Shown here: positions 2,943-5,535 of the stretch, one piece after another
How positions within the stretch are numbered: the first letter of the stretch is position 1
How the letters are laid out: each line of letters opens with the position of its first letter
Source of the DNA: Caenimonas sedimenti
GTDB lineage: Bacteria > Pseudomonadota > Gammaproteobacteria > Burkholderiales > Burkholderiaceae_C
Direction of reading: 5' to 3'
Assembly (NCBI RefSeq): GCF_007833165.1
Contig: NZ_VOBQ01000003.1
Coordinates: 62,001-126,000 of the forward strand
DNA length: 64,000 nt
The notes under the pieces: generated by a model
What the model was told of the DNA's origin: nothing
Database searches by the model: none
What the model saw: only the letters and a program-made list of their open reading frames with translations
Program-made: the position numbers and the translations under genes

Positions 2943-3865
2943 GCACCACCTTCACGAAGACCCCCGGCTGGCTCGACTGGTATTCGGGCCCGACCCAGCC
3001 GCAATTCAAGCTGCCGCCCGGCAGCGTCGACGCGCACTGCCACGTGTTCGGCCCGGGCGCCGAATTCCCGTTTGCGCCGGAGCGCAAATACACGCCGTGC
3101 GACGCCAGCAAGCAGCAGCTGTTCGCGCTGCGTGATCACCTGGGCTTCGACAAGAACGTGATCGTTCAGGCCACCTGCCACGGCGCGGACAACAGCGCGA
3201 TGGTGGACGCACTGCGCCACTCGAACAACAAGGCGCGGGGCATCGCCACGGTCCGGCGCTCGGTCACCGACGCGGAACTGCAGGACATGAACGCCGCCGG
3301 CGTGCGCGGCGTGCGCTTCAACTTCGTCAAACGGCTGGTCGACTTCACACCGAAGGACGAGCTGATGGAGATCGCCGCGCGCATCGCGCCGCTCGGCTGG
3401 CACGTCGTCATCTACTTCGAGGCGGTGGACCTGCCGGAGCTGTGGGACTTCTTCACCGCGCTGCCGACCACTGTGGTCGTGGATCACATGGGCCGGCCCG
3501 ACGTGACCAAGCCGATCGACGGCCCCGAGTTCGAGCTGTTCCTGAAATTCATGCGCGAGCACGAGAACGTCTGGAGCAAGGTGAGCTGCCCGGAGCGCCT
3601 GTCGGTGAGCGGTCCGCCCGCCCTGAACGGCGAACGCAATGCCTACCGCGACGTCGTGCCCTTCGCGCGCAAGGTCGTGGAAACCTTCCCCGACCGCGTG
3701 CTGTGGGGCACCGACTGGCCGCACCCGAACCTGAAGGACCACATGCCCGACGACGGCCTGCTGGTCGACTTCATCCCGCACATCGCGACCACCGCCGAGC
3801 TGCAGCGCAAGCTGCTCGTGGACAATCCGACCCGTCTCTACTGGCCGGAAGAAAACAAGCGATGA
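2939..3865 (+). CDS. ligI: 2-pyrone-4,6-dicarboxylate lactonase (LigI)
   Basis: LigI hydrolyses 2-pyrone-4,6-dicarboxylate to 4-oxalomesaconate, linking LigC to LigJ. Features of this metal-independent amidohydrolase are visible: [12 protein letters not shown] with the H-x-H pair near residues 33-35, [10 protein letters not shown], and [10 protein letters not shown] near the C-terminus with the catalytic Asp. I place the start at the TTG at 2939, which overlaps the ligK stop as TTGA and gives [17 protein letters not shown] and 308 residues, close to the family length. Any earlier start would run far into ligK. The 3' end overlaps the next gene as ATGA, so ligK, ligI and the esterase-like gene are translationally coupled. 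Confidence 0.92.
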
Positions 3866-5535
3866 AAACACTCCCGAAGCTCTTGGCCGCGTCCGCCTTT
3901 CTGGCGGTGATGGGCGGATGCGCGAACGCGCCGCTGACCGCGAACCCGGAGCCGGTCTGCGCAGCTCTGGCCGGCCGCACCATCCTTCCGGCCGCCATCG
4001 GGTTGCCGAGCGGCGCCGCCACGATCGACACGGCGGTGCTGGTCGCGGCCAGCGAGCAGGTGGTGGCTGAGCGCGGCCCGACGCCCGCGGCGACCATCAC
4101 ACCCGCCATGCCGGTGCACTGCAAGGTGCTGGGGCGGATCGCGCCGCTGAACGGCGATGCGCCGCCGATTCATTTCCAGGTGAACCTGCCGGTCCACTGG
4201 AACGGCCGTTCGGTGCAGTACGGCGGCGGCGGCTTCAACGGCGTGCTGATCACCGGCACGGCACTGGTTCCCGCGGCCCGTTTCGAGCAGCCCGCGCCGC
4301 TCATGCGCGGCTACGTCACGTACGGCACGGACTCGGGCCATCAGAACAAGCCCGGCGAGCCGCCGCAAGCCTTCGCTCTCCATCCGGAGGCGCTGGAGAA
4401 CTTCGCCCACGCGTCATACAAGAAGGTGCGCGACGTGGCCGTCGCCATCATGCAGTCCGCCTACGGCAAGCGTCCCGACAAGCTGTATTTCGTGGGCAGT
4501 TCCGAAGGCGGCCGCGAAGGGCTCACGATGGCGCAGCGCTACCCGCGCGACTTCGACGGCATCCTGAGCCGCGTGCCGGTCCTCAACTGGACCGGGCTGC
4601 AGCACGCAGGCCTGCGCGATGGCCTGGCCCTGGTGGGCGATGGCTGGTTGCGCCCGGCCCAGGTGAAGTTCGTGCATGACGCGGTGCTGGCCTCGTGCGA
4701 CGCCGCCGATGGCCTGGCCGACGGCATCATTTCCGACCCTGTGCGCTGCCGCAACCGGCTCAACATGGACAGCCTGCGTTGCCTCACGTCCACGTCGCCG
4801 CACTGCCTCAACGATGCGCAGGTCAAGGCCATCCGCACGCTGCATTCGCGGCTGTCTTTCGATTTCGACCTGGCCAACGGCGTGCGCGACTATCCTGGCC
4901 GCGGCCCCAGCGGAGAAGGAACGCCTGCCGCGGGCCCGACCGGCGGCTGGCAGGCCTGGTGGACCGGCAACGCGGCGCCAGCCTTCCCGCCGGTGCAGGC
5001 GAACGGTATCGCCTGGTTCTATGGCGCCGGCGCGATCCAGTACTTCTATGCGCGCGACCCCAACCTCGACGTCCGCAAATACAACCCGCAGGACCACCTG
5101 CCGCGCATCCGCCAGGTCTCGGCGCTGATGGACGCGACCAACCCCGACCTCACCGAGTTCCGCCAGCGCGGCGGCAAGCTGATCATGTTGGAGAACATGG
5201 GCGACTACGCGCAGAGCCCGTATGCCGGCATCGGCTACTTCCAGTCGGTCGTCAAGCGCATGGGCGAATCGCGCGTCGAAGATTTCTTCAAGCTCTACAC
5301 CGCGCCGGGCGTGGATCACGTCGGCACGGGCGCGCCCGGCAACGCCGAACTGTTCCCCGCCCTGGTGGACTGGGTCGAAAACGGCCGTGCGCCCGGCGGT
5401 CTGGCCGTCGTCGAGCAGGAAGCCAAACCGCCTTTCCGCGTGACCCGTGCGCGTCCGCTCTGCGAGTGGCCGAAGTGGCCGCGCTATCGCCGCGGCGACG
5501 TCAATGCGGCCGAGAGTTTCGAGTGCGTCGATTGA
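3862..5535 (+). CDS. Tannase/feruloyl esterase family lipoprotein with altered CS-D-HC motif
   Basis: A 557-residue alpha/beta hydrolase of the tannase family, which hydrolyses esters of gallate, hydroxycinnamates or terephthalate. The first 20 residues form a lipoprotein signal ending MGGC, so it is probably membrane-anchored in the envelope. The nucleophile elbow is [11 protein letters not shown] (Ser214), the likely acid is Asp448 in [10 protein letters not shown], and the His is His486 in PGVDHVGTG. The acidic loop [15 protein letters not shown] matches the family calcium site. Oddly, the cysteine normally before the Ser is Ser213 and the one normally after the His is Val487, so the disulfide joining the triad is absent. 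Lying between ligI and ligA, it probably supplies or modifies an aromatic ester; the substrate is not known. Confidence 0.85.

Follow-up and report, generated by a model that had tools for sequence, protein, structure and literature searches.

The best solved structural matches of the esterase described here are MHETase of Ideonella sakaiensis (6qz1, 6qga; Foldseek E 2.5e-38), the feruloyl esterase AoFaeB (3wmt; Z 38.0) and then the tannase of Aspergillus niger (7k4o). MHETase shares with our protein the fold, the catalytic triad, the GxSEGG motif with its Glu, the calcium-ligand residues and the structural disulfide cysteines, at about 26-30% identity; its Glu226 and Trp397 correspond to Glu215 and Trp366, whereas its Cys224-Cys529 pair is Ser/Val in our protein and its Phe495 is Gln451. 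AoFaeB and a second feruloyl esterase, FoFaeC (6fat; Z 37.0), have the fold in common with it at 23-26% identity. Judging from the consulted parts of PMC6461665, the AoFaeB triad is identical to that of our esterase, but AoFaeB has an active-site disulfide, which ours lacks. The A. niger tannase is more distant (20-23% identical), with the fold in common over 466 aligned residues (Z 28.0).

This active-site disulfide, which joins the residue before the catalytic Ser to the residue after the catalytic His (the CS-D-HC type), is described in the same parts of PMC6461665 as typical of the family, being more than 80% conserved in the ESTHER block. According to passages of PMC7568301, MHETase deprived of it ends up in inclusion bodies or is not expressed.

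The closest described genetic system is the pmd operon of Comamonas testosteroni, which has the protocatechuate 4,5-meta pathway in common with our locus; a term search of the main text of PMC10154247 returned neither a tannase nor an esterase in it. The window, i.e. the 64,000-nucleotide stretch of the Caenimonas sedimenti genome that was analysed, carries on its forward strand a single run of genes in the order ligJ, ligK, ligI, esterase, ligA, ligB and ligC. Judged from sequence, the six lig genes make up a pmd/lig protocatechuate 4,5-cleavage operon: ligJ/pmdE (1229..2257; 4-oxalomesaconate hydratase; 2gwg, E 3.4e-208), ligK/pmdF (2259..2942; 4-carboxy-4-hydroxy-2-oxoadipate aldolase; TIGR02798, 411.3 bits against a cut-off of 304.5), ligI/pmdD (2942..3865; 2-pyrone-4,6-dicarboxylate hydrolase; 4d8l, E 3.6e-108), ligA/pmdA and ligB/pmdB (5550..5939 and 5936..6793; protocatechuate 4,5-dioxygenase alpha and beta; TIGR02792, 221.8 bits against 108.6, and NF009903, 575.7 bits against 317) and ligC/pmdC (6795..7751; CHMS dehydrogenase), whose sole solved match at E<=1e-20 is PmdC (9azo, E 1e-168). 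The start codon of ligI is not fixed and is probably a TTG near position 2939. The esterase frame (3862..5535) begins with an ATG at 3862 that overlaps the TGA of ligI (3863-3865) and stops 14 nt short of ligA.

At the head of the operon lies a gene for a ModA-like solute-binding-fold protein (505..1206, forward strand), which reaches 21.1 bits with the ModA model, below the cut-off of 62.5, and has no obvious signal peptide by eye. A gene of this kind recurs at the pmd operon head in at least 11 of 29 loci with the esterase, many of these loci being short, and in 8 of 15 without it. A LysR-type regulator gene stands at the upstream edge on the opposite strand (L068).

The esterase gene encodes a 557-residue protein that matches PF07519 (tannase/feruloyl esterase/MHETase) over model positions 1-490 of 490 with a score of 499.1 bits (cut-off 29.8); the NCBIfam models returned no name for it. 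Sequence inspection predicts an N-terminal signal (3862..3921) with a lipobox-like MGG-C20, and the protein is thus a putative exported esterase. Direct inspection placed C20 in MGGC and confirmed S213, S214, D448, H486 and V487. Ser213-Ser214, Asp448 and His486-Val487 occupy the positions of the usual Cys-Ser, Asp and His-Cys motif, so that the triad (S214, D448, H486) is present in a GxSxG context and neither column of the CS-D-HC pair holds a cysteine. The calcium loop (D280-I289) retains D280, D283, L285, D287 and I289 in the alignment. Pairwise alignment with MHETase recovers the calcium ligands together with six of the eight structural disulfide cysteines, a correspondence of residues only, and C33 and C296 were assigned to the remaining two through columns of the family alignment. 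The sequence-only reading had described a triad and calcium loop kept while both cysteines were missing together, in a gene embedded by an ATGA overlap in a protocatechuate 4,5-cleavage operon; residue checks and alignment bear out the former, and the overlap and the identification of six lig genes by NCBIfam models and solved relatives the latter. An AlphaFold2 model built from 32 rows has a mean pLDDT of 88.2 and a pTM of 0.89. It is weak near His486 (mean pLDDT 61 for block 481-490, under 50 at 489-491), and we therefore draw nothing from it about residues 213 and 487.

The active-site cysteine pair across the family

Among 177 aligned PF07519 proteins, both paired cysteines were present in 85, neither in 92 and exactly one in none. 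Independent columns would give about 88 proteins with exactly one cysteine, although the rows are related and this is a comparison of counts without a formal test; the absence of single cysteines is the pattern expected of a disulfide. The alignment comprises the window protein, 8 paralogues from its own genome, 31 proteins from related loci, 27, 28 and 3 from searches of the family, phylum and class, respectively, and 79 from hand-chosen regions, and is weighted towards relatives of the window protein. Its 183 initial frames, from which two copies of the window (L001 and L038) had been excluded beforehand, were reduced to 178 by merging identical sequences and to 177 by removing the near-duplicate L069. 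In the 46 rows drawn from the phylum through the family model, 31 had both cysteines and 15 neither. The window's own genome encodes nine family members, including the one studied here, and five of them lack both cysteines.

The Ser/Val pair is found in all 35 rows of the clade formed by the window protein and 34 orthologues. A local sequence error as the cause of the missing cysteines, a possibility that close homologues with the canonical residues would have revealed, is ruled out by the agreement of these orthologues, and in the alignment no other cysteine occupies either paired column in any of the 35 rows. Cysteine-free members of the sample carry 17 other residue pairs at the two positions. 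Within the titles and abstract openings covered by our literature search, no cysteine-free tannase subfamily was described.

For tree building the two paired columns were blanked. With FastTree (177 rows), the 35 Ser/Val rows are monophyletic with a local support of 100, and in a mixture-model tree of 54 representatives the five Ser/Val sequences group together (SH-aLRT 100). The Ser/Val clade is nested in a larger cysteine-free clade of 84 rows (FastTree support 95); in the tree of 54 representatives, 17 of the 21 cysteine-free rows lie on one side of a branch with support 95. The state of the cysteine pair changes at least five times on both trees, with five changes forced by starred branches in the FastTree and four in the mixture-model tree. 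A single clade of all cysteine-free members was rejected on the 54 representatives (p-AU 2.7e-97), a rejection that may be overstated owing to long-branched rows (L009, for example) and that comes from a test chosen after inspection of the tree. The trees are unrooted, and loss of the pair seems the simpler reading than gain, as cysteine-type rows occur on both sides of the midpoint. The Ser213/Val487 state would have been inherited from an older cysteine-free lineage, as would the altered Asp loop and the Asp485 described below. Of the earlier proposal that coordinated loss marks a distinct subclade, the clade itself stands, but the loss is not confined to it; with about half of the sampled relatives cysteine-free, the observation is less surprising than first claimed.

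According to the alignment, the full set of eight other disulfide cysteines is found in 34 of the 35 Ser/Val proteins, in 52 of the 57 remaining cysteine-free proteins and in 75 of the 85 of cysteine type. At the same time, 24 positions hold a residue that 34 or 35 of the 35 clade members share and that no more than 14 of the 142 other rows have; several of these positions lie beside the active site (E215, E444, Y449, Q451, Y454, D485 and V487). The loop bearing the catalytic Asp is changed to E[N/H/Y/Q]xxDYAQSP: at position 445, where most relatives have Gly (84 of 85 cysteine types), the clade has Asn (25), His (7), Tyr (2) or Gln (1). Asp485 precedes the catalytic His. The retention of the other cysteines, together with the clade-fixed residues around the active site, suggests that only the active-site disulfide was lost and that the loops it joined were reshaped. 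The active site would lie beneath a lid that retains the calcium loop, in a chain that would keep the family's other four disulfides, while the fifth, which elsewhere ties the Ser and His loops, would be replaced by Ser213/Val487; loop packing and hydrogen bonds may have taken over the role of this clamp.

Further variants were observed among the family members. A family member (L168 64-1797) aligns Ala at the catalytic Ser position, and a paralogue from the window's own genome (L009 1147-3033) aligns Glu at the catalytic Asp position. Two members of a T/G cysteine-free subgroup (L053 1174-4029 and L057 1273-4020) have about 320 extra C-terminal residues, for which no Pfam match was found at E<=0.001.

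The ligI/ligA junction

Apart from the window, the clade has 34 loci, and in 29 of them ligA is the next gene downstream of the esterase. All 29 belong to Burkholderiales (25 Burkholderiales or kin and four from the window's own family). The gene upstream is ligI in 28 of them, and the 29th (L040) has just 83 nt of upstream sequence. The five Ser/Val rows outside Burkholderiales (L027, labelled Bradyrhizobium, and four more) showed no lig genes in the flanks searched, which extended about 7-8 kb on each side for four rows and about 1.3-1.5 kb for L070.

In all of 15 esterase-free operons, picked from the top of a list of LigB matches, a gap of 6-105 nt separates the ligI match from the ligA match (6-20 nt in 14 of them); two of these operons belong to the window's own genus group. 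As ligI and ligA adjoin in these operons and enclose the esterase in others, the gene is, from its sequence context, an optional cassette at one junction. An orthologue was found in 7 of 200 genomes of the family, as against 123 of the 200 that gave a LigB-like match with E<=1e-60, some of these matches being paralogues only 44-49% identical; most lig-bearing relatives manage without the esterase gene. A class-wide search at E<=1e-60 gave matches in 3 of 274 genomes, including the window's own, and no further orthologue of the Ser/Val clade; all 163 records from a plasmid search were below 60% identity to the window esterase. No tannase within a lig/pmd operon was described in the titles and abstract openings of the literature searched.

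A tree of LigI-A-B was built from 25 of the 30 operons with the esterase (the other five had no complete LigB or carried frameshifts) and the 15 without. Presence of the esterase changes at least 10 times on it, six changes being forced by starred branches, and is hardly more clustered than chance, with 46 of 500 label shuffles as low. A single gain of the cassette is unsupported by these changes, seen with near-random clustering in chosen operons. Tepidimonas aquatica (with the gene) and L200 (without it) are near neighbours on the tree. Pairwise identity of the esterase correlates with that of LigI-A-B (r 0.74 over 300 non-independent pairs). Either an old insertion at one junction followed by many losses or the exchange of operon segments would explain both the scattered presence and the correlated identities.

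Several loci have peculiarities of their own. In three Rubrivivax-labelled loci (L029 403-2622, L030 5337-6926 and L032 2-2752) a canonical cysteine-type tannase lies in tandem between ligI and the Ser/Val gene. In one pmd operon (L021 3573-5939) a penicillin-amidase-family gene is located between ligK and ligI. In Ramlibacter terrae (L024 4242-10500) frameshifts split the lig genes and the esterase, probably through sequencing or assembly error.

Substrate and alternative explanations

The lineages closest to the clade give a hint of the substrate. Two nearest sister rows, L191 and L192, adjoin pobA (TIGR02360, over cut-off), and a third, L187, lies downstream of benA-B-C, an aromatic-acid transporter gene and pcaD; the models for benB, benC and pcaD scored above the cut-off, and those for benA and the transporter just below it. 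As L191 and L192 are near-copies, the sister evidence amounts to two lineages. At sister loci L188, L189 and L190 the scanned genes, which are part of those present, included no such aromatic enzymes; the neighbourhood of L190 includes an IclR-type regulator gene and a shikimate-dehydrogenase-like gene. Together with the position among the lig genes, the aromatic neighbours point to esters of benzoate-type acids.

Based on this association, we suggest that the protein is probably an exported serine esterase of the alpha/beta-hydrolase type which releases benzoate-type acids from plant-type aromatic esters for the operon. Ser214 would attack the ester, aided by His486 and Asp448. Likely substrates would be esters of protocatechuate, gallate, 4-hydroxybenzoate or similar acids, cleaved outside the cytoplasm, and the freed acid would then be taken up and its ring cleaved through the operon's own LigAB-C-I-J-K pathway. 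The earlier idea of specialisation for another ester is plausible.

A hydroxycinnamate esterase, acting on feruloyl, p-coumaroyl or caffeoyl (chlorogenate) esters, with the acid converted to protocatechuate by side-chain shortening, seems a less probable candidate that still deserves attention. The nearest solved folds include two feruloyl esterases from fungi (3wmt and 6fat), and protocatechuate derived from ferulate would be consumed by the operon's pathway as well; however, the recognised aromatic genes of the sister lineages (pobA, the ben genes and pcaD) serve benzoates, and none of the genes recognised there is for ferulate.

We consider it quite improbable that the protein is a MHETase-like hydrolase of phthalate-type monoesters, whose phthalate or terephthalate would be converted to protocatechuate. 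MHETase is the best PDB match both by sequence and by Foldseek, and Glu215 and Trp366 are shared with it, but MHETase sits in a mostly cysteine-type group (49 of 54 rows), apart from the window's cysteine-free clade. Moreover, Gln451 takes the place of Phe495, and in the stretch 374-391, where Arg411 of the MHETase lid residues Arg411, Phe415 and Ser416 would be expected, Arg does not rank among the four commonest clade residues at any position, the alignment of the lid being unsure.

Its patchy presence, with at least 10 changes on the LigI-A-B tree and six of them forced, would also suit a catalytically idle or drifting passenger of the operon. Little probability attaches to this, since the triad is intact in 35 of 35 clade rows, the surroundings of the active site are strongly conserved and the gene keeps a constant position in 29 loci. 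Lastly, the sequence-only reading suggested a protein that works in a reducing environment. Loss of the disulfide through folding or function in such a compartment has the absence of the two cysteines as its sole support. It is contradicted by the retention of the eight further disulfide cysteines in 34 of the 35 Ser/Val proteins and by the lipobox that a loose pattern recognises in 22 of the 35 (most of the others have an N-terminus judged Sec-like by eye), and we find it scarcely credible.

With regard to the benzoate-type esterase that we favour, we put at about even the chances of the following broader history: a disulfide-free branch of the tannases lost the clamp as a pair and diversified, and one of its lineages was recruited as a swappable ligI/ligA module, an exported hydrolase dedicated to benzoate-type esters. 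If this is true, the operon gains an entry point from esters, which we did not find described in the titles and abstract openings searched. The natural cysteine-free members might serve as material for testing the function of the clamp and for building stable enzymes that lack it, and the operon position yields a testable substrate prediction for a class of enzymes applied to tannins, plant cell walls and plastics.
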